Below, in pieces: positions 3,495 to 27,804 of a DNA stretch of 36,920 nucleotides. How positions within the stretch are numbered: position 1 is the first letter of the stretch; each line of letters begins with the position of its first letter. Under the pieces are notes generated by a model. The model saw only the letters and a program-made list of their open reading frames with translations, was not told the DNA's origin and made no database searches. Source of the DNA: Candidatus Poribacteria bacterium (GTDB lineage Bacteria; Poribacteria; WGA-4E; GCA-2687025); NCBI GenBank assembly GCA_016866785.1, contig VGLH01000025.1:1-36920 (forward strand), given 5' to 3'. The position numbers and the translations under genes are program-made.

Positions 3495-5969
3495 ATGCCC
3501 CGACGGAACCTGCCGACGCGACTCGTTCTCGCCGCCCTGATCTCGATTGCCGTGGGATATGGTTCGCGGGCCCTCGCGCAAGGCGATGGCGCGCAGCCAC
3601 CGGTCGAGCTCGTTGTGTGGGGGCTCGGCGAAGGCGAATCCCAGATCGGTCGGATCGCAGCGATGGACGAGTTCGAGCGCCGCTGGAACGCAGACACGCG
3701 CCGCGTCGCTCAGTTCGGTCCGGTCCGGCTGGTGCAGTCCGTCCAGGGCGGACGGATGAACCCGCAGAAGCTGATGACGGCGATCGCCGGCGGCGCGCCA
3801 CCCGATGTCATCAACCAAGACCGCTTCTCCATCGGAGGGTGGGCGGCGCGCGACGCCTTCCTGTCTCTGGACGACTTCCTCAACGCCCAATCGCCCGACG
3901 ATCCCCTGGCGATCCGCGAGCAAGACTACTTCGCCGCCTGCTGGCAGGAGGCGGTCTACAACGGGCGGGTCTACGCGATCCCCAATAGCACCGACGACCG
4001 GCTGCTCTTCTACAACAAAGGCCTGCTGAAGGCGGCGGGCTACGTCGACGAACACGGCGAGACTCGACCCCCGAAGAATTGGGACGAGCTCAAGGAATAC
4101 GCAGTCAGACTGACGTCGCGCGACGAACTGGGCAACATGGAACGCGTGGGCTTCATCCCGAACTACGGCAATAGCTGGCTCTACCTCTATGGCTGGCAGA
4201 ACGGCGGCGAGTTCATGAGCCCGGATGGTAGCCGCGCCACGCTGGACGACCCGCGCATCGCCGACGCGCTGGACTGGATCACCGACGTCTACGATGCGCT
4301 CGGAGGCAGACCTGCCGTCGAGAGCGTCGTCTCGACATTCCAGCCCGGGGCTCTCGATCCGTTCCTTACGGGTCGGCTCGCGATGAAGATCAACACCAAC
4401 GGCGAGTTGGGCAACATCGCGCGCTATATGCCCGACTTGAACTTCGGCGTCGCCCCTGCCCCGATGCCGCCCGGGCGAGAGGATTCGCCGATCACATGGT
4501 CCGGCGGGTTCTCGTGGGCGATACCGAGGGGCGCTGCCCATCCCGAGGTCGCGTGGGAGTTCATCCGGTGGATGGTCAGCGAAGAAGCGACGCTCCTGAT
4601 GAACCGGGTCCGCGACCGCTACAATCGCGCTCGCGGACGGCTCTACGTGCCGGACATGTCGGCGAACCGGCGAATCAACGATGTCGTGTACGCCCAGTTC
4701 GTCGAGCGCAGCCCGTACCTGCCCCCGGCGTTCAAGCAATACTCGCGGCTCGCAGCGGACATGATGCCCGCCAGTCGGTTCCGCCCCGTCACGCCAGTCG
4801 GTCAACTCTTGTGGGACGAGCACGCGCGCGCCTTCGAACGCGCGACGAGGCACGAGTACTCGTCCCAGGAAGCTCTGCAGCTCGGAACGCGCGAAGTCCA
4901 GCGGGAGCTGGATCGTCTGCATCGCGACACGGGCGGCGTGCCGATGCGATGGGGTCTGCCTGTCGCGGCAATTCTGGCGGCGCTGATCGTTGCCGGCGCG
5001 TTCCTCGTCGCGCGTGCGTACCGGCGGCGCGCTGGCGCGTGGCATCGACGCGGCGTGCTCGAAGGGCTGGCGGGTCTCGCGTTCGTCTCTCCGTGGCTCG
5101 TTGGGTTCGCCGTCTTCACGGCAGGACCCGTTGTCGCGTCGATCCTCATCAGCTTCACGGAGTACGATGTGCTCCACCGAGCCGAGTTCGTGGCGTGGCG
5201 GAACTACTGGGAGCTGCTCGCCGCCGACCCGGTGTTCTGGAAGGCGTTGGGCAACACGGCGTTCATGGTCCTCGGAGTTCCCATCGGTATGGCGGTCGGA
5301 CTGGGGATCGCCCTCCTGCTGAACGCGGATGTGCGCGGCATGGCTGCCTACCGGACGGTGTTCTACCTTCCCGCCATCGTCCCGGTCGTCGCGAGCTCGG
5401 TGCTCTGGATCTGGGTCCTCAACCCAGACGGTGGACTGCTGAACTCAGGGCTCCGCTTCCTGCGGGTCGAGGGCATTCTGACCTGGCTCGCGCGCGCTGC
5501 GGGAGCCGGCGGGCTCTACTGGCTGCAGGAGCAGGTTCTGGCGAAGCCCGCCATCATCCTGATGGGGCTGTGGAGCGCCGGGTCGAGTATGATCATCTGG
5601 CTCGCAGGGCTCAAGGGCATTCCTTCGCACCTCTATGAAGCCGCTGCCATTGATGGCGCGAACCGCTGGGAACGGTTCGTCCACGTGACGCTGCCCATGC
5701 TGAGCCCGTACATCTTCTTCAATCTCATCATGGGCATCATCGGAACCTTCCAGATATTCACGCAGGCTTATGTGATGACGCAGGGCGGACCGGCGGACGC
5801 GACGCTCTTCTACGTCTACTACCTCTTCAACAGCGCGTTCCAGTACTTCCGCATGGGCTACGCGTCGGCGATGGCTTGGATCCTCTTCGCGATTGTCCTC
5901 GCGCTAACGCTGATCCAGCTTCGGCTCGCGCCACGATGGGTTCATTACGAGGCGGACGACACGCCATGA
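3495..5969 (+). CDS. Fused sugar ABC transporter: solute-binding protein plus MalF-type permease
   Basis: An 824-residue protein that joins two normally separate parts of a CUT1-type sugar importer. Residues 1-29 are a signal peptide ending in ALAQ. Residues ~35-460 are a family-1 extracellular solute-binding domain ('VELVVWGLGEGES', 'QEAVYNGRVYAIPNSTDDR', 'WSGGFSWAIPRGA'). A membrane helix at ~486-508 then leads into a permease from ~525, opening 'GLAFVSPWLVGFAVF'. The EAA loop that contacts the ATPase is present near residue 715 (EAAAIDGANRWERFVHVTLP). The start at 3495 is chosen because it opens directly with the signal sequence; the frame extends upstream but through the promoter. The stop overlaps the next permease by ATGA. 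Free binding proteins are usual for this family, so tethering one binding domain per complex is unusual. The sugar specificity cannot be read from sequence. Confidence 0.88.
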   Translation: MPRRNLPTRLVLAALISIAVGYGSRALAQGDGAQPPVELVVWGLGEGESQIGRIAAMDEFERRWNADTRRVAQFGPVRLVQSVQGGRMNPQKLMTAIAGGAPPDVINQDRFSIGGWAARDAFLSLDDFLNAQSPDDPLAIREQDYFAACWQEAVYNGRVYAIPNSTDDRLLFYNKGLLKAAGYVDEHGETRPPKNWDELKEYAVRLTSRDELGNMERVGFIPNYGNSWLYLYGWQNGGEFMSPDGSRATLDDPRIADALDWITDVYDALGGRPAVESVVSTFQPGALDPFLTGRLAMKINTNGELGNIARYMPDLNFGVAPAPMPPGREDSPITWSGGFSWAIPRGAAHPEVAWEFIRWMVSEEATLLMNRVRDRYNRARGRLYVPDMSANRRINDVVYAQFVERSPYLPPAFKQYSRLAADMMPASRFRPVTPVGQLLWDEHARAFERATRHEYSSQEALQLGTREVQRELDRLHRDTGGVPMRWGLPVAAILAALIVAGAFLVARAYRRRAGAWHRRGVLEGLAGLAFVSPWLVGFAVFTAGPVVASILISFTEYDVLHRAEFVAWRNYWELLAADPVFWKALGNTAFMVLGVPIGMAVGLGIALLLNADVRGMAAYRTVFYLPAIVPVVASSVLWIWVLNPDGGLLNSGLRFLRVEGILTWLARAAGAGGLYWLQEQVLAKPAIILMGLWSAGSSMIIWLAGLKGIPSHLYEAAAIDGANRWERFVHVTLPMLSPYIFFNLIMGIIGTFQIFTQAYVMTQGGPADATLFYVYYLFNSAFQYFRMGYASAMAWILFAIVLALTLIQLRLAPRWVHYEADDTP

Positions 5970-7678
5970 CCTCAGACGCCGCTCCGCCGACCCGACGGAG
6001 GACCCGGAGCGCGACCGCGCAACGCGTGGTGCTGCACGTCGCCCTTTGGGTGGGGGCGGCGGTCTTTGCGCTCCCGTTCGTGTGGCTCGTCGCGACGAGC
6101 GTGAAGTGGGACCGCGAGGTGTTCGCCGAGAGCCAGAGCTGGCTCGCCCGACTCGTTCCGCGCCTGCCATATCGCGTGGATCGCACGCCGTACATCGCGG
6201 TCGCTGAGACGCCCGATTTCGTCCGACCCGGCTCGCTGAGCCGGCGCGACTGGGACGCGCTGAGGGACCGCCTCGAACCGGTGCTGTGGGACGCGGTTCA
6301 GCCTGCCATCGCCAAACAAGAGGTCCCGGATCCGCTCCGCAACGATATCCGTCGCACGATGACTCGCGACCTGTGGCGTCGAGTCATCGGCGAGGTGCCC
6401 GAGGAGCTCTGGCGCCAGCCCACATCGAGGATCGTGACGGAGGTCGCCGCGCGCGTGACGCCGGAGAAGGTCGCCGCGGCGTGGAGCTCGGTCTACCGGT
6501 CGGTCAGGATCGGCGCGCCAACCATTCAGGCGCTCGACCAAAGCGACTACGCGCTCGAACGGATGGATTGGCACGTGGCGCGCGGGGAGCTACGGGCAGT
6601 GGCTCCGGGAATCGACGTCAACGCTGGCACGGAGCTCTGGACGAACTACCAGAGGACTCTCCAGCGTTCCGTCGTGGGCTTGTTTTACGCCGACGCCAAG
6701 CTGCCCATCGATCCTGCCAAGGTCCGCGCCATTACGATCCCAGTGCATGGGGATGAGTCGTACCACCACTTCACCGCCTCGGTCGAAGTGAGCGGCGCGA
6801 CCTACCAGAGCAGCGAGCCCATCGTCCTACGCAACTACACGTGGCAGGAGGTCACGCTCCAGGTTCGCGGCAACCCGCTCCCGCACGAACGCGAGAACAT
6901 CCAACTGTCGCCAGCCACCAGCTCCGCCGGCGCGAGCTTGTCCGGCAATCTGCGCGTCACGCTGACGCTACACCGAACTCCATATTGGCAAGCGATCTGG
7001 CGGAAGTTCGCCCGAAACTACGAGGACGCCTCGACCTTCGTTCGCTTCTGGCTCTTTGTCAGGAACACGGTCCAGATCACGGCGTTGAGCATCGTCGCGC
7101 AGCTTCTTTCGTGCTCTCTGGCCGCCTTCGGGTTCGCCCGTCTGCGATGGCCCCTGCGCGAGCCGACGTTCCTCGTCCTGTTGAGCACGATGATGCTGCC
7201 GCCCCAAGTCACGATGATCCCTGTCTTTCTCATCATGCGGCGGCTCGGGCTCTATGACACGCTCCACCCGCTCTGGATCGGGTCGCTGTTCGGGAGCGCG
7301 TTCTTCATCTTCCTGCTGCGGCAGTTCCTGCTCGGAGTGCCGCGCGACTTGGAGGACGCTGCGAAGATCGACGGATGCAGCTACTTCGGCATCTACTGGC
7401 GCATCATGCTCCCTCTCGTCAAACCGGCGCTCGCGGCAATCGCCATCTTCCAGTTCATGGGCGCTTGGAACGACTTCCTGGGCCCTCTCATCTACGTCAG
7501 CAGTGAGCGCAACACGACGCTCTCGCTCGGGCTTCAGATGTTCCAGTCGCTGCACACGAACGAGTACGGAATGCTAATGGCGGCGGCGACCGTGATGGCG
7601 ATCCCGGTCATCGTCGTGTTCTTCGTCGCTCAGCGCTATTTCATCCAGGGAGTAACTCTGACGGGCATGAAGGGATGA
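5966..7678 (+). CDS. MalG-type sugar ABC permease with a large extracytoplasmic insertion
   Basis: A 570-residue inner-membrane permease, about twice the usual ~280 residues for MalG-type proteins. The first membrane helix (~residues 24-46, 'LHVALWVGAAVFALPFVWL') is normal. It is followed by roughly 300 hydrophilic residues (~50-350) before the second helix at ~360 ('VRNTVQITALSIVAQLL'). The rest is a standard CUT1 permease core with the EAA loop near 460 ('LEDAAKIDGCSYFGIYWRI') and the family's C-terminus. Given the helix order, the insertion should face the periplasm, next to the tethered binding domain of the partner. The insert has a helix-rich first half and a strand-rich second half ('VRAITIPVHGDESYHHFTAS'). 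The start at 5966 is set by the ATGA overlap with the fused gene, and the stop overlaps the lactonase gene. No ATPase lies beside it, so a shared MsiK-like ATPase is likely. Confidence 0.87.
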   Translation: MTSDAAPPTRRRTRSATAQRVVLHVALWVGAAVFALPFVWLVATSVKWDREVFAESQSWLARLVPRLPYRVDRTPYIAVAETPDFVRPGSLSRRDWDALRDRLEPVLWDAVQPAIAKQEVPDPLRNDIRRTMTRDLWRRVIGEVPEELWRQPTSRIVTEVAARVTPEKVAAAWSSVYRSVRIGAPTIQALDQSDYALERMDWHVARGELRAVAPGIDVNAGTELWTNYQRTLQRSVVGLFYADAKLPIDPAKVRAITIPVHGDESYHHFTASVEVSGATYQSSEPIVLRNYTWQEVTLQVRGNPLPHERENIQLSPATSSAGASLSGNLRVTLTLHRTPYWQAIWRKFARNYEDASTFVRFWLFVRNTVQITALSIVAQLLSCSLAAFGFARLRWPLREPTFLVLLSTMMLPPQVTMIPVFLIMRRLGLYDTLHPLWIGSLFGSAFFIFLLRQFLLGVPRDLEDAAKIDGCSYFGIYWRIMLPLVKPALAAIAIFQFMGAWNDFLGPLIYVSSERNTTLSLGLQMFQSLHTNEYGMLMAAATVMAIPVIVVFFVAQRYFIQGVTLTGMKG

Positions 7679-8514
7679 CCGCCTTGATCGTCGATACGCA
7701 CACGCACTTCTACGACCCGACCCGTCCGCAAGGCGTTCCGTGGCCGCCCAAGGACGACGCCGTGCTCTACCGAACGGTTCTGCCGGAACATCTGCGGGCG
7801 CTCGCCGAACCGCTCGGGATCGCAGGAACCGTTGTCGTCGAAGCGAGCCCTTGGCGCGACGACAACGATTGGATCCTCAGCCTGGCTGCGGTGGAATCCT
7901 ATATCGTCGGCTTCATCGGGAACCTCGACATCACGGGAACGGAAGTCCTGGATGACCTGGCGCGGTTGGGAGCGAATCCGATGTTCCGAGGGCTCCGCAT
8001 CGGGTCTGCCGCTTTGCATCGCGCGATGGACGATGGCTCATTCCGCGTCTTCGCCGCGTTGGCAGACCAGGACCTAACGCTGGACCTCCTCGCCGGAGCC
8101 GACGATCTGCCCGCCGTCCGGCGACTGGCTGCGGCGTTCCCGCGTCTGAGAATGGTCCTCGATCACATCGCGCATGTGCGCGTCGACGGTCAGGCTCCGA
8201 ACCCTGGGTGGAGAGACGGCATCGAGCGTCTTTCGGACACGCCGAACGTGTTCTGCAAGGTGTCGGGCATGGTCGAGGCGACTGGCTTGAGCCCTGCGCC
8301 GTCCGATCCGGGCTTCTATGCGCCGACGCTCGATGTGCTTCGGGGTTCCTTCGGTGATGGGCGGCTCGTATTCGGAAGCAACTGGCCCGTCTGCGAACGG
8401 TTCGCGAGCTACGCGACCGTGCTCCGCATTCCAGAGCAATACTTCTCGACCTGCGGCGCGACCGAACAGGTCTTTTCGCTCACCCACGTTGCGGCGTATG
8501 GGCGGCGAGCTTGA
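7675..8514 (+). CDS. Amidohydrolase-2 family protein, sugar-lactonase-like
   Basis: A 279-residue TIM-barrel metal hydrolase of the amidohydrolase_2 group (COG3618-like), which includes L-fuconolactonase, L-rhamnonolactonase and 2-pyrone-4,6-dicarboxylate lactonase. The strand-1 motif is 'VDTHTHFYDP' (His9, His11). 'LDHIAHV' around residues 162-168 supplies the next His. Near the C-terminus, 'VFGSNWPVCERF' occupies the place of the GSDWP motif, with Asn where many members have Asp; GSN variants also exist in this family. The start overlaps the permease stop by ATGA. Placement straight after two sugar permeases suggests hydrolysis of an aldonolactone derived from the imported sugar. The substrate is inferred, not shown. 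Confidence 0.78.
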   Translation: MTALIVDTHTHFYDPTRPQGVPWPPKDDAVLYRTVLPEHLRALAEPLGIAGTVVVEASPWRDDNDWILSLAAVESYIVGFIGNLDITGTEVLDDLARLGANPMFRGLRIGSAALHRAMDDGSFRVFAALADQDLTLDLLAGADDLPAVRRLAAAFPRLRMVLDHIAHVRVDGQAPNPGWRDGIERLSDTPNVFCKVSGMVEATGLSPAPSDPGFYAPTLDVLRGSFGDGRLVFGSNWPVCERFASYATVLRIPEQYFSTCGATEQVFSLTHVAAYGRRA

Positions 8515-8550: not shown

Positions 8551-11500
8551 ATGCTGGTTCACAAAGTCCATCTCCGAAACATCCGAAGCTACCACGACGA
8601 GACGCTGGAGTTCGGCGGGGGCGTCCATTTCATCTGCGGTCCTAACGGGGCCGGCAAGACCAGCATCATCGAGGCGATCGGATTCGCGCTGTTCGGAGCG
8701 TCGCCTGAGCATCTCGCCCGGTTCGTCCGGGAAGGTCAGACCCGTGGCGACGTGCGCGTGTGGTTCCGCGCCAACGATCACCGTGACTACATTGCCGAGC
8801 GTGCCATCCGCGTGTCTGGACGCACAGCGTCCAGCTCGTGGTCGATCCGAGATGCGGCGACGGACGACCGCGAGATCGCCCACGGCGCGGCTGACGCCGA
8901 GTTCTTCCTGAGGCAGCACCTGCTGTCTTCGGTCGACGACCGCCCGCTGAGCGAGCTGTTCGCCAAGGTCGTCGGAACCGCGCAAGGATCGTTCACCGCT
9001 CCGTTCCTCGACACGCCTTCCCAACGCAAGGCGGCGTTCGACTCCTTGCTCCGCGTCGCCGCCTACAAACGGACGTTCGAGCGAACGTCCGGGATCGACT
9101 CCCGGTTGTCGGATCGCCTCGCCGAGCTTGGAAGCCAGATCGCGCGCGTGAGTGAAGAGGCTGCGTCGCTGGAGGGCATTCGCGCTGAGATCGAACGCAT
9201 CGAAACCGAGATCGAGAGCCGGAAGGCAGCGGTAGAGGACCTGGATCGCCGATGCGCCGAAGCCGAGCAAGCCGTCACCAACCTCGAAGCCGCTCGACAG
9301 CGACTGTACTCCGCTCGGGCAAAGGCGCTCGAGCTGCACTCGACCTTGTCGGATGCCAGCGCGCGCGCCGAAGCCGCATCCGCTAGGCTCGAGGAAGCTC
9401 AACAGGCAGCGGTTGCCCTGGAGGACGCCCGCCCAGCGCACGAGCGCTATCTCCGCGTGATGGAACGGCTGGAGCACCTGCGCCAGCGCCAACGTCAGGC
9501 CAGCGAGCTGCGAGCTGAGTTGGCGCGTGCCGCCGAACGGGCTGACCAGGCGGAGAATGAGCTACAGCGTACGAGGGCGCTTCTGGCGGACGCCCATGCG
9601 ACGTGCGACGCGACCTCAAGAGCTCGTGCGAACGCGGAACAAGCTCTCAACGACCTCGAGAAGCGGCAAGTCACCCGAGCCGAAACCATCGAGGATCGTA
9701 TCAGCGGCTTGCAGCGAGCCAACGATTCGCTTCGAGCCCTGAGCGCCGTTCGACACGATCTGGCGCAGATCGAAACCGATGCGCGTGAAGCGGTTCGCTC
9801 CGCGGCTGTGCTCGACGCCGAGATCAGCCGATACGATACCGAGCTGAGCCAGCGACCCGACGTCGCCGAGATCGCCGCGTCGGAAGGCGCGCGCGTCAGC
9901 GAGAAGGAAGAGGCTGTCCGGGCGCTCAGCAGCGTGTCCGCCTTGAAGGAGCAGGCTCGGTGCAACCTCGACTTGGCGGCAGATGGGCTATGTCCGATCC
10001 TGGGAGAGCCATGCCGTAACGTCGAAGGCGATTTGGCGACGCATTTCGTCCGCGAGCTCCGACTGCTGGAGTCCGAGGTCGAACAGCGGACACTCGACGT
10101 CGCCAATGCCAGCGAAGCCCTGGAGCGCTCCACAGACGCCCGGATGCGCCTCTCGCGCCTGGATCGCGCGCACGACCGCCGCGAAGACGCCGTCCGCGAG
10201 CGAGAGTCGCTGGTCGCGCGCGTCAGATCGCAACTCGAACGCGTGCGGTGGGACGAATGGGCAGAGGCGGCGCCGTCTCTGGCGGACGCCCTCCGCAAGC
10301 TGGCGCCGGACCCGAAGGCGCGCGGCGAGCTCGACGCGCTGCTCGGCGAAGTCGGGAGCCTTCAGTCCGTGCTGGACTCGCGTGAATCGGACGAGCTGAC
10401 GGGGCTTGGCGAGGCGCTGGCGCAGGCGCGGCAGAAGGTGGAAGCGGCGTACGACGACTGGGCATCAAGGCTCGACGGTGCGCTGTCGGCCGCGCAACGC
10501 GAGCTCTTCGAAGCGCGCCGTCTCGAAGACGAACTGCGAGTTGCCCAGGCGGAGATGGATCGGCTCTCGTTCCAGATGCGCCAAGCCGAGAACGAACGCG
10601 CCCGGCACGAGCAGGCAGAGCGCGAGCTTGTCGCACGGATCGGCTCCTATCAGCGCGACCTGGATGCGGCAAGGGAACGAGTCACGGCATATCAGGGCAT
10701 TGACGAACTGGTGGCGTCCGTCGAAGCGGAACAGCGAGACTTGTCACCCGGATACACCCGATTCCTTGAGAACCGTGGCATCGCCGCCGAGCTCTCCGAA
10801 CGTCAACGACTCCACGAGCAGGCGAAGTCAGCCGCCGCCGCCGCAGACCGAGAGCACAAGGCGGCGCAAGCGACAGTCGAGGACATTGCGTCGCGTTTCC
10901 GCGAGGAGGATCTTCGGGAAGCGACGGAGCGTAGCCGGTGCTTAGTGCGCGATGCCGAGAAAGAGCGCGGCGCGATCGCTGGCTTGGACCTCGAGCTGCG
11001 AACGGTCCATGACAAGGCTTCCCGACTCAGCGACCTCGAGCGCCTACTCGCCGATGCTCGGGCCCGACGAGAACAGCACGAGCGTATTCGCGAGCTTTCC
11101 AGGTTCGTCCGCACCCGCGTGTTGAGCCGTGCGGGAGAGCGGATCGCCCAGGCGTACCTTCGACGCGTCAGCGATGGAGCGACAGCAATCTACAGGACGC
11201 TCGCCAAGGAAGCCGCCGATCTGGAGTGGACGTCGGACTACGACATCAACCTGCGCACCAGCGAGACGGGCCCATCGCGGCAGCGCGTGTTCCGCCAACT
11301 CTCCGGCGGCGAGCAGATGACGGCTGCGCTTGCCGTGCGTCTCGCCCTGCTTCGCCTCGTGTCGGATCTCGGGTTCGCCGTCTTCGACGAACCGACCACG
11401 AACCTCGACAGCGACCGGCGCGCGCATCTCGCCGCCGCCCTTCCCGACCTGCGAAACGTGTGCCCGCAGCTCTTCGTGATCAGCCACGACGATACGTTCG

Positions 11501-11568
11501 ACACCGTGGTGGAGCAGGTGATCCGCATCGAGAAGACGCCGGATCGAGGCAGCCATCGGGTTCTCTGA
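8551..11568 (+). CDS. sbcC: Rad50/SbcC-like ATPase with an atypical Cys-x6-Cys hook
   Basis: A 1005-residue SMC-type ATPase of about the usual SbcC length. Walker A is at 30-38 (GPNGAGKTS). The ABC signature LSGGEQ is near 917, Walker B with DEPTTNLD near 946, and an 'ISHDD' switch region follows. Two long coiled-coil arms rich in Glu, Arg, Ala and Leu fill ~170-470 and ~500-880. At the apex, where Rad50 and SbcC normally carry the zinc hook CPxC, this protein has CPILGEPC (Cys481 and Cys488), a CX6C spacing. Known Rad50/SbcC proteins work with the Mre11/SbcD nuclease on DNA ends and hairpins, but no such gene is in the window. It follows the sugar operon by 36 bases with only a weak ribosome-binding site, so its transcription may be separate. 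It could alternatively be a solitary SMC-like family member. Confidence 0.87.
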   Translation: MLVHKVHLRNIRSYHDETLEFGGGVHFICGPNGAGKTSIIEAIGFALFGASPEHLARFVREGQTRGDVRVWFRANDHRDYIAERAIRVSGRTASSSWSIRDAATDDREIAHGAADAEFFLRQHLLSSVDDRPLSELFAKVVGTAQGSFTAPFLDTPSQRKAAFDSLLRVAAYKRTFERTSGIDSRLSDRLAELGSQIARVSEEAASLEGIRAEIERIETEIESRKAAVEDLDRRCAEAEQAVTNLEAARQRLYSARAKALELHSTLSDASARAEAASARLEEAQQAAVALEDARPAHERYLRVMERLEHLRQRQRQASELRAELARAAERADQAENELQRTRALLADAHATCDATSRARANAEQALNDLEKRQVTRAETIEDRISGLQRANDSLRALSAVRHDLAQIETDAREAVRSAAVLDAEISRYDTELSQRPDVAEIAASEGARVSEKEEAVRALSSVSALKEQARCNLDLAADGLCPILGEPCRNVEGDLATHFVRELRLLESEVEQRTLDVANASEALERSTDARMRLSRLDRAHDRREDAVRERESLVARVRSQLERVRWDEWAEAAPSLADALRKLAPDPKARGELDALLGEVGSLQSVLDSRESDELTGLGEALAQARQKVEAAYDDWASRLDGALSAAQRELFEARRLEDELRVAQAEMDRLSFQMRQAENERARHEQAERELVARIGSYQRDLDAARERVTAYQGIDELVASVEAEQRDLSPGYTRFLENRGIAAELSERQRLHEQAKSAAAAADREHKAAQATVEDIASRFREEDLREATERSRCLVRDAEKERGAIAGLDLELRTVHDKASRLSDLERLLADARARREQHERIRELSRFVRTRVLSRAGERIAQAYLRRVSDGATAIYRTLAKEAADLEWTSDYDINLRTSETGPSRQRVFRQLSGGEQMTAALAVRLALLRLVSDLGFAVFDEPTTNLDSDRRAHLAAALPDLRNVCPQLFVISHDDTFDTVVEQVIRIEKTPDRGSHRVL

Positions 11569-24649: not shown

Positions 24650-25960
24650 ATGCCGACCGACCTCGCCCACCACATCGCCGAGACGCCGCTCGTCGATACG
24701 CACAACCACCTCCAGCGCGAGTCGTCGTGGGTCGACAAGGGCCCCGACATCCTACAGGACCTGTTCGGGAACTATGTCCCAGCCGACCTGCACTCGGCGC
24801 GCGTCTCGTCCGAAGCGATGCAGCGGCTCTTCAACGCTGAGGACGACGATATCGCCGGACGCTTCCGTGGCATCCGCGCCGCGTGGGAAGCGGTTCAGTT
24901 CACCGGCTACGGCGCAGCGGTTCGACTGATCGCTGAGCGCGTCTACGGGCTCGACAAGATGACGCCCAAGCGGATCGCCAAAGCCGCCAGCCTCGCGCGC
25001 AGGATGCAGAAGCCAGGCGAGCGGTATCGCATGCTCCGCGACGACGCTAATCTCGACCACATCCAAGTTGACGACTTCTCGTGGGCGTGCGCGCCGGACG
25101 AGTCAGGTCCCGACTTCTTTCTCTACGACATCTCATGGGCTGGGCTCAGCTTCGGCGAGGTGAACGCCAAGCAGATCCACGACCACACAGGCATCGACGT
25201 CGTCGATATCGCCAGCCTGCGGGCCGCCATCGAGGCGATCTTCGCCAAGTACGCACCCTTCGCCATCGCGGTCAAGGCGCAGCATGCCTACAACCGCACG
25301 CTGGAGTGGACGGAACGCTCGGACGCCGAAGCCGGCGCAGCCCTGGACGCCGTTCTGCAGAACCCGCCCGAAACCATCGGCGTCCACACTCGGCTGTGTC
25401 TCGGCGACTGGTGCTGGGCGCGGGGAGTCGAACTGGCAGCGGAGCACTCGCTGCCGTTCAAGCTCCATACCGGCTACTACGCCGGAAACGACCGGATGCC
25501 CGTCAGCCGCATCGCACCCGGGCTCCTCGGCGGCATGCTGGCGAAGTACCCGAACACGCGGTTCGTCCTCATGCACGCGTCGTATCCCTATACCCAAGAG
25601 CTCGTCGCCCTGACGAAACACTACCGCAACGTCTGGGCTGACCTGTGCTGGGCGTGGACGATCGATCCGTTCAGCTCGCGCGACTTCCTCCGCCGGTTCA
25701 TCCACGCCGCGCCGATCAACAAGGTATTCGCCTTCGGCGGCGATACGGCGTGGCCCACGAGCACGCTCGCCTACGCGGCGCAGGCGCGCCAAGAGATCGA
25801 TCGCGCTCTCCAGGCGGAGGTCGACGAGGGTTACCTCACCGAGAAGCAAGCGAAAGCCATCGCGACGCGCATCATGCGCGGCAACCAGCATGACTGCTTC
25901 GATGTCGAAGGCACGCGCGCGAACATCCGTAAGGCGCTCGAAACCGGAGCGGCAGGATGA
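24650..25960 (+). CDS. Amidohydrolase family protein (uronate-isomerase-like TIM barrel)
   Basis: A 436-residue metal-dependent amidohydrolase_2-type barrel. The strand-1 metal motif is 'LVDTHNHLQRESSW' (His18, His20). Other barrel-end residues appear in 'AIAVKAQHAYNRTLEW', 'FKLHTGYYAGNDRMPVSR', 'VLMHASYPY' and 'VFAFGGDTAWPTSTLAYAAQ'. The layout resembles uncharacterised members between glucuronate isomerase and the glutamine-synthetase-linked amidohydrolases. GGGAGAG precedes the ATG at 24650, and the stop overlaps the DUF4838 start by ATGA. With a sugar dehydrogenase before it and a glucuronidase-like protein after it, action on a uronate or its derivative is a reasonable inference, but not shown. 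Confidence 0.82.
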   Translation: MPTDLAHHIAETPLVDTHNHLQRESSWVDKGPDILQDLFGNYVPADLHSARVSSEAMQRLFNAEDDDIAGRFRGIRAAWEAVQFTGYGAAVRLIAERVYGLDKMTPKRIAKAASLARRMQKPGERYRMLRDDANLDHIQVDDFSWACAPDESGPDFFLYDISWAGLSFGEVNAKQIHDHTGIDVVDIASLRAAIEAIFAKYAPFAIAVKAQHAYNRTLEWTERSDAEAGAALDAVLQNPPETIGVHTRLCLGDWCWARGVELAAEHSLPFKLHTGYYAGNDRMPVSRIAPGLLGGMLAKYPNTRFVLMHASYPYTQELVALTKHYRNVWADLCWAWTIDPFSSRDFLRRFIHAAPINKVFAFGGDTAWPTSTLAYAAQARQEIDRALQAEVDEGYLTEKQAKAIATRIMRGNQHDCFDVEGTRANIRKALETGAAG

Positions 25961-27804
25961 GCCAGAGCGTGACGCTCGTCCGGGACGGGGAGCCGGCAGC
26001 CGTCATTCTGACCGACCCAGCCCCGACGCCGTCGGCGCGTCTGGCGGCGATGGAGCTCCAGTATCACGTCGAGCGCATGACGGGAGCCCGGCTCGCGATC
26101 ACGGCAGACGCCGCGAGTGCGCCGGGAATCGTTCGCCTGCTCGTCGGCGAGAGCGAGCGAACACGCCAGCTCGGGCTCAGGTCGTCCGATTTCGCGTCGC
26201 AGGAGTACGCGATCCGGTTCACGGGCGACGAGGTCGTCCTGATCGGCCGCGACTGGCAAGACACGCCGGAGAACCGCGCCGAAGTCGGTCGCGGCACCAA
26301 CTTCATGACGCTCCAGGACGCGCGCCACCGGATCGACTACCTGGCGGCGACCGGCGGATCGCCCAAGAGCAACGGCGACCGCGTTTCCATCGAGCTTCCA
26401 GGCTTGTTCGACGACCAGGGCACGGCATACGCCGTCTACGACTTCCTCGAACGCTTCTGCGGCGTACGGTGGTACGGGCCCTCGACTCTCAACGTCGTGG
26501 TTCCTCGCGCTCAGACGCTGACTGTCGAAGGCGAGGACGTCCGGCGGGCTCCCGCGATGTCCTACCGCGAGGGCATCGGCGGCGGATGGCCCATCCTGCA
26601 AGGGCAATGGGGGAATCCCAACGGCGACCAGCTCGCGCTCTACTGGCGGCGGATGCGCGTCGGCGGCGAGCGTTGGGGAGCCAACCACTCGTTCCGCAGC
26701 TTCTACGACCGGTTCCTCAAGCAGAACCCCGACAACCCCCATCTGTTCGAAGGCGAGCGCCCGGACTACTTCGCGCAAGGGTGGACACAGGGCGAGCGGC
26801 AGTTCTGCTACACGAACGCCGCCCTCGTCGAGCAAGTCGCCCATGACGCCCGCGACTACTTCGACGGCAGGGGCCTCAAGGGCTACCAAGTCGCCATGGG
26901 CGACTACTTCGCCGTCGTACCCATGGACAACGCCAACTGGTGCAAGTGCGACCGATGCCAGGCGTGGCTCGAACGCGATCGAGACAACATCCGGGGCTCG
27001 CACTTCAGCAGCGGAACCGCGACGCACTACCTGTTTCAGTTCGTCAACGCCGTCGCGCGCGAGGTCGGCAAGACGCATCCGTCCAAGTGGATCGCGACGC
27101 TCGCGTACCACGTCTACGCCTTCCGACCGACGGACTTCGAGCTGGAACCCAACGTCGCCGTCGCGCCGTGCCTGCAGAACCGCAACTACTGGGCTCCTCT
27201 CATCCGCAAGAACGACATCGACCTCTACAAGGCGTGGGTTGAGCCGCGCGACCGACCCATTCACCTGTGGAACTACTACTGCTTCCCCATGGAGCCCGCC
27301 CTCATCAGCGGGTGGAAGTGCTTCCCCGGATTCAACATCCGCGGCCATGCCGCCCAGATCCGCATGTACCACGAGGACGGCGTTCGAGGCGTCTTCCTCT
27401 GCGGCATCGGCGAGCAGGTGGACTACTACGTAACGATGCGGCTCTACCACGACGCCACGCTCGATGTCGAAGCCACGCTGGACGAGTTCTTCCGGCTTTA
27501 CTTCGGGCGCGCAGCGGAACCGATGAAGCGGTTCTATGACCTGATCGAGCGCCGGTTCGCGGACCCGTCCAACTATCCGGACCCAATCCGCCAGGTCGAG
27601 ACCCAGTACCACCAGACAGCGGAGCTCGCCTGGAAGTATCTCGGCACAGACGGCGTGATGTCCGAGTTAGGGCGTCGCATCGACGAAGCCGAAGGGCTCG
27701 CGACGGACCCCCTCGAACGGGAGCGCGTCGCCTCTTGGCGTTCGGCGGTGTGGGACTACATGGTCGCGGGCAAAGCCGAGTACGGCTCCAAGTCCGGCGG
27801 CTGA
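25957..27804 (+). CDS. DUF4838 protein with a GH67-like N-terminal domain
   Basis: A 615-residue protein without a signal peptide. Residues ~1-180 resemble the N-terminal alpha/beta domain of alpha-glucuronidases ('RLAAMELQYHVERMTGARL', 'QEYAIRF', 'GTAYAVYDFLERFCGVRWYGP'). Residues ~230-510 match DUF4838, with 'SHFSSGTATHYLFQFVNAVA' and 'IHLWNYYCFPM'. A small Cys cluster ('NWCKCDRCQAW') could bind metal. The C-terminal ~100 residues are helical ('LDEFFRLYFGRAAEPMKRFYDLIERR'). It overlaps the amidohydrolase gene by ATGA and ends three bases from the convergent deacetylase-like gene. Family function is largely unproven; a glycoside-processing role is inferred from the N-terminal domain and context. 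Confidence 0.85.
   Translation: MSQSVTLVRDGEPAAVILTDPAPTPSARLAAMELQYHVERMTGARLAITADAASAPGIVRLLVGESERTRQLGLRSSDFASQEYAIRFTGDEVVLIGRDWQDTPENRAEVGRGTNFMTLQDARHRIDYLAATGGSPKSNGDRVSIELPGLFDDQGTAYAVYDFLERFCGVRWYGPSTLNVVVPRAQTLTVEGEDVRRAPAMSYREGIGGGWPILQGQWGNPNGDQLALYWRRMRVGGERWGANHSFRSFYDRFLKQNPDNPHLFEGERPDYFAQGWTQGERQFCYTNAALVEQVAHDARDYFDGRGLKGYQVAMGDYFAVVPMDNANWCKCDRCQAWLERDRDNIRGSHFSSGTATHYLFQFVNAVAREVGKTHPSKWIATLAYHVYAFRPTDFELEPNVAVAPCLQNRNYWAPLIRKNDIDLYKAWVEPRDRPIHLWNYYCFPMEPALISGWKCFPGFNIRGHAAQIRMYHEDGVRGVFLCGIGEQVDYYVTMRLYHDATLDVEATLDEFFRLYFGRAAEPMKRFYDLIERRFADPSNYPDPIRQVETQYHQTAELAWKYLGTDGVMSELGRRIDEAEGLATDPLERERVASWRSAVWDYMVAGKAEYGSKSGG

Follow-up and report, generated by a model that had tools for sequence, protein, structure and literature searches.

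A probable CUT1-type sugar importer with its solute-binding domain fused to the MalF-like subunit in Candidatus Poribacteria and other phyla

Architecture of the fusion gene and its operon

The 36,920-nucleotide stretch of Candidatus Poribacteria DNA analysed here (the window) carries an operon in which a solute-binding protein and a permease are encoded as one polypeptide, with the gene for a MalG-type partner permease adjoining it (Table 1). The domain order given by a sequence-only reading of this DNA, namely a family-1 binding domain, a membrane helix and a MalF-type permease in a single chain, was recovered by Pfam searches and hydropathy analysis. Both the SBP_bac_1 (aa 82-365, E 9.4e-33) and BPD_transp_1 (aa 598-815, E 7.1e-15) matches exceed the curated Pfam cut-offs. 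The permease part is best matched by UgpA and MalF (UgpA model, E 1.3e-24), with SugA (7cad, E 6e-21) as a solved relative of this half, while a Foldseek search with the model of the fusion returned family-1 binding proteins first, the best being CpMnBP1 (4r9f, E 3.4e-21).

Table 1. Features of the fusion operon, with positions counted along the window
Feature	Position	Strand	Basis
Fusion ORF, 824 aa, single unbroken frame	ATG 3495 to TGA 5967-5969	+	frame translation
Putative Sec-type signal peptide, aa 1-28 (MPRRNLPTRLVLAALISIAVGYGSRALA), no lipobox cysteine	3495..3578	+	inspection: hydrophobic segment, AxA-like cleavage site
SBP_bac_1 family-1 solute-binding domain, ~aa 36-475	3600..4919	+	Pfam, AF2, Foldseek
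Junction transmembrane helix, aa 487-512, then basic cytoplasmic stretch	4953..5030	+	hydropathy, AF2, homologues
MalF/UgpA-type permease core, aa 518-815	5046..5939	+	BPD_transp_1, UgpA model, SugA 7cad
MalF-part EAA loop, on which the ATPase docks, EAAAIDGANRWERFVHVTLP	5637..5696	+	conserved alignment block
Partner permease of MalG type (570 aa), start codon overlapping fusion stop (ATGA)	5966..7678	+	BPD_transp_1 E 9.6e-20
Periplasmic domain inserted in MalG after helix 1 and before helix 2 (aa 47-352), made of a helical subdomain and a beta-sandwich	6104..7021	+	alignments A1-A3, AF2
MalG EAA loop, 22 aa	7349..7414	+	invariant residues in alignments A1/A2
Amidohydro_2 enzyme; start overlaps malG stop (ATGA)	7675..8514	+	Pfam E 2e-37

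The AF2 model of the whole fusion chain (pLDDT 83.0, pTM 0.81), in which the binding domain mostly scores above 90, places a helix at residues 487-512; this region contains a strongly hydrophobic segment (aa 488-506, LPVAAILAALIVAGAFLVA, mean Kyte-Doolittle 2.64) and is followed by the basic stretch RAYRRRAGAWHRRG. Given the signal peptide, the junction helix with basic residues after it and the MalF core, we infer that one extra helix takes the chain from the periplasm to the cytoplasm, so that the MalF core would begin in its usual orientation. The MalF part lacks a large periplasmic loop and retains a conserved EAA block (E715, A716, D720, G721, A722, T732 and P734 in the 41-row alignment A4), which in type I importers is the loop on which the ATPase docks. 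The EAA loop is likewise intact in the partner permease, whose best matches are UgpE, GlcU and MalG. The presence of an SBP_bac_1 domain together with two distinct BPD_transp_1 subunits, of MalF and MalG type and each with an EAA loop, points to the CUT1 class.

The Amidohydro_2 gene is a probable third member of the operon, confined to the window's genome; its product scores 126.6 bits against the L-fuconolactonase model, short of the 400-bit cut-off, and no such neighbour was found at the other fusion loci. Across these loci no conserved neighbour besides malG was found, and no kinase, regulator or ATPase gene recurs. The gene neighbourhood was therefore rejected as a guide to the substrate, the downstream amidohydrolase included, since it is not shared. 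Directly downstream of the operon lies a gene for a Rad50/SbcC-like ATPase of 1005 aa (window 8551-11568). Elsewhere in the window a DUF4838 protein (25957-27804) starts at the end of another Amidohydro_2 gene (24650-25960), near GFO/IDH/MocA oxidoreductases; this region is possibly a glycan-degradation cluster.

Conservation and phyletic distribution of the fusion

A scan that took a single genome from each species gave 80 loci, and at 45 of these both halves lie within one ORF; at a further one (L039) there is an additional fusion copy truncated by the contig end. The nearest relatives of the window's protein belong to Candidatus Poribacteria (72% identity), a phylum in which the fusion was found in 8 of 85 genomes (one copy being cut by a contig end), comprising all 6 genomes of the window's family and 2 others. 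Of 251 genomes sampled from the phylum to which a Chthonomonas homologue belongs, 151 gave a match at E <= 1e-120, and among the matches listed nearly all are full length, in one frame of at least ~800 aa with no internal stop. The remaining fusion loci come from Abditibacteriota, Planctomycetota, Sumerlaeota and Hydrogenedentota, all of them draft MAGs.

The window itself comes from a draft assembly of 291 contigs, and binding-protein and permease genes do occur back to back in other CUT1 operons (e.g. Sinorhizobium, L081), which could favour a sequencing or assembly error that joined two genes and hid a stop codon. However, the same uninterrupted fusion with its conserved junction helix recurs at 45 independent loci and in the majority of the genomes sampled from another phylum. 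A hydrophobic segment is predicted at the junction in all 46 sequences, the window's included, and junction dN/dS is below 1 in 6 of 6 computable pairs (0.05-0.73), with values of 0.01-0.13 for MalF. The open frame at the junction near 4950, noted in the sequence-only reading, thus extends to 45 homologues, and the uninterrupted ORFs, the conserved helix and the dN/dS values exclude an undetected stop or frameshift there. An artefact, to which we would assign practically no probability, is refuted by independent assemblies. Two apparent fusions elsewhere were discarded: 1) a single tblastn piece on Sinorhizobium pSymB, which on inspection represents two separate adjacent genes; 2) the apparent long frames of a large Poribacteria family (f8), where binding protein and permease are encoded by distinct genes that share a reading frame and are divided by stop codons.

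In a MalF tree the 46 fused rows form one clade (SH-aLRT 99, by a quick method), and in a binding-domain tree all fused rows fall on one side of a branch (support 79). That the fused proteins form one clade in the MalF tree marks the architecture as inherited and not an assembly error. Unfused near relatives are known for both halves: in Latescibacterota (L045) the binding protein ends at the junction, in a Bacillota operon (L069) the two are separate genes, and in L039 an unfused MalF adjoins the fused gene. Unfused MalF paralogues (~47-51% identity) also coexist with the fusion in the same genomes, where the fusion itself is usually single copy. The simplest account of these data is a single fusion event followed by long retention.

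The N-terminus varies among the 46 homologues, taking the form of a cleavable signal, a lipobox-like motif (11 of 46 in a simple pattern search) or a hydrophobic stretch possibly kept as a membrane anchor; given this variation, the binding domain of some members may be tied to the membrane by its two ends. A gene adjoining the unfused Latescibacterota binding protein (L045:4981-6498) has a start that appears TIR-domain-like by eye (FVFISHASKDDDFVQKLR).

The MalG partner and its periplasmic insert

At most loci where it was found, malG lies directly downstream of the fusion, overlapping it or separated by no more than ~150 bp. More than 1 kb separates the two genes in L026, L028 and L043, and L014, L044 and L046 lack a neighbouring malG, so that their partner must be encoded elsewhere. 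The intervals L026:8383-10013 and L028:8447-9944 each hold two genes between the fusion and malG, which by eye are tyrosine-recombinase-like and helix-turn-helix-like.

The MalG of the window bears a periplasmic insert of ~306 aa. Comparable loops of 304-320 aa are seen in every readable MalG of one of two sister clades (Poribacteria, L005-L008, L010, L036, L041 and L042), and those of the other clade measure 33-198 aa, several of these MalGs having an extra hydrophobic N-terminus. For the insert alone AF2 gave a fairly confident prediction (pLDDT 83.8, pTM 0.80) that consists of a helical region and a beta-sandwich. No Pfam family matched the window's insert, and Foldseek returned weak matches to CBM61 and CBM11 (E 0.0075-0.026); on these grounds its assignment as a carbohydrate-binding module was rejected. 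It is a new domain for study. In E. coli the large periplasmic loop sits on MalF, whereas here it is MalG that carries one. Given that the MalF part has no such loop and MalG does, the MalG domain may have taken over the positioning of the binding domain or the handling of glycans.

The ATPase

No ATPase gene was found in the operon or near the fusion. In all 7 fusion-bearing genomes examined exactly one ATPase passes the UgpC cut-off, and in these draft contigs no BPD_transp_1 gene was found on its contig or within 100 kb of it, the exception to the former being G009, in which the nearest one on the ATPase contig is ~145 kb away. One such UgpC-type ATPase, encoded elsewhere in the window's genome (L083, G000:C115:9409-10491, 487 bits, above the cut-off), sits on a 13-kb contig on which no permease or binding-protein match was found, and is probably a shared ATPase. 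Several further MalK-like ATPases are present in the fusion-bearing genomes. By exclusion, and within the limits set by draft contigs, a shared ATPase of the MsiK/MsmK style would serve the importer; like the known shared ATPases of the UgpC/MsiK/MsmK type, the UgpC-type ATPase here is not encoded with a permease.

Proposed function

In light of the above, we propose that the fusion is most probably part of a CUT1 (MalFGK-type, type I) ABC sugar importer, in which a single binding domain is tethered to the MalF-like subunit and transport is powered by a shared ATPase. To judge from its relatives, the substrate is probably an oligosaccharide. A single fusion chain would pair with one MalG and a dimer of the ATPase, so that each complex would hold exactly one binding domain; this domain would capture the oligosaccharide, dock on its own channel and release the sugar without leaving. 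Kept at a high local concentration, the binding domain would dock and undock in turn but not diffuse away, and the shared ATPase would power the cycle. As a guess, the periplasmic domain of MalG may position the tethered binding domain or hold the glycan. The scheme draws on what is established for CUT1 importers and on results with fused or cross-linked MalE as related in PMC7756565, according to which MalE fused to MalF is transport-competent.

Genomes with the fusion usually carry just one copy of it and have unfused MalF paralogues as well, so that other systems could do the transport, and at some loci an adjacent malG is missing; the fused protein might then act mainly as a sugar sensor, that is a trigger or receptor with little transport. 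We consider this very unlikely, as strong conservation marks the EAA loops and permease core of MalF and MalG alike, MalF evolves under the low dN/dS reported above, malG is usually the next gene, and neither a kinase nor a regulator recurs beside the fusion. The importer is thus retained as the preferred reading. A more elaborate version of it, possible though on balance doubtful, is that a tethered CUT1 importer was a separate ancient invention in Poribacteria, Armatimonadota and a few other phyla, and that the MalG of one clade gained a ~306-aa glycan-handling domain that cooperates with the binding domain and replaces the docking role of the E. coli MalF loop.

The tethered CUT1 design with one binding domain is a stable family that apparently arose once and occurs in most of the sampled genomes of one phylum. 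Its members are natural material for testing whether import depends on an excess of free binding protein. There is also a risk of mis-annotation, as a protein of this kind may be given a name that reflects just one of its halves.

Comparison with known systems

A MalE-MalF fused maltose importer from Bdellovibrio bacteriovorus has been characterised (Licht et al. 2019, Res Microbiol 170:1-12, doi 10.1016/j.resmic.2018.08.006, as cited in PMC9045158 and PMC7756565), and was the only studied case of the tethered one-binding-domain CUT1 design found in the literature. The suggestion in the sequence-only reading that binding protein-permease fusions were new to CUT1 importers therefore does not stand, since the architecture is both common in one phylum and already described, a combination which that reading had itself named as grounds for refutation; a literature search found no earlier description of the particular lineage reported here.

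As far as the title and these accounts describe it, the Bdellovibrio protein likewise belongs to a CUT1 importer and joins one family-1 binding domain to MalF in the same order, and its binding domain (PDB 6ffl) is among the Foldseek matches to our fusion model (E 6.8e-16). One could thus suppose that the two are the same fusion, spread or inherited, and that the window's system is therefore a maltodextrin importer. We hold this to be unlikely: by sequence the window's binding domain is much closer to CpMnBP1 (4r9f, E 1.5e-36) than to 6ffl (E 7.2e-8, with 18% identity in structural alignment), and each half has unfused nearest relatives (L045, L069 and the second MalF in L039), which fits a separate fusion event. 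The window system is further set apart from the maltose/maltodextrin importer described for Bdellovibrio by its MalG with the large periplasmic domain. The window family shares the Bdellovibrio plan, differs from it in sequence and in the MalG domain, and probably had a separate origin.

The closest solved binding protein is the mannooligosaccharide-binding CpMnBP1 (4r9f/4r9g, E 3e-37 to 1.5e-36), which is free-standing, whereas the binding domain here is tethered; at ~22% identity the two are too distant for specificity to be transferred. Permease folds, EAA loops and the family-1 binding domain are shared with E. coli MalEFGK2 (2r6g), mycobacterial LpqY-SugABC (7cad) and UgpBAEC, but in these the binding protein is separate, either soluble or a lipoprotein. 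Permanent tethering of binding domain to permease is held in common with OpuA and GlnPQ, which are importers of the OTCN and PAO classes with other substrates and at least two binding domains per complex. Against this background the system is a modest variation on the described Bdellovibrio design, common in a few little-studied phyla.
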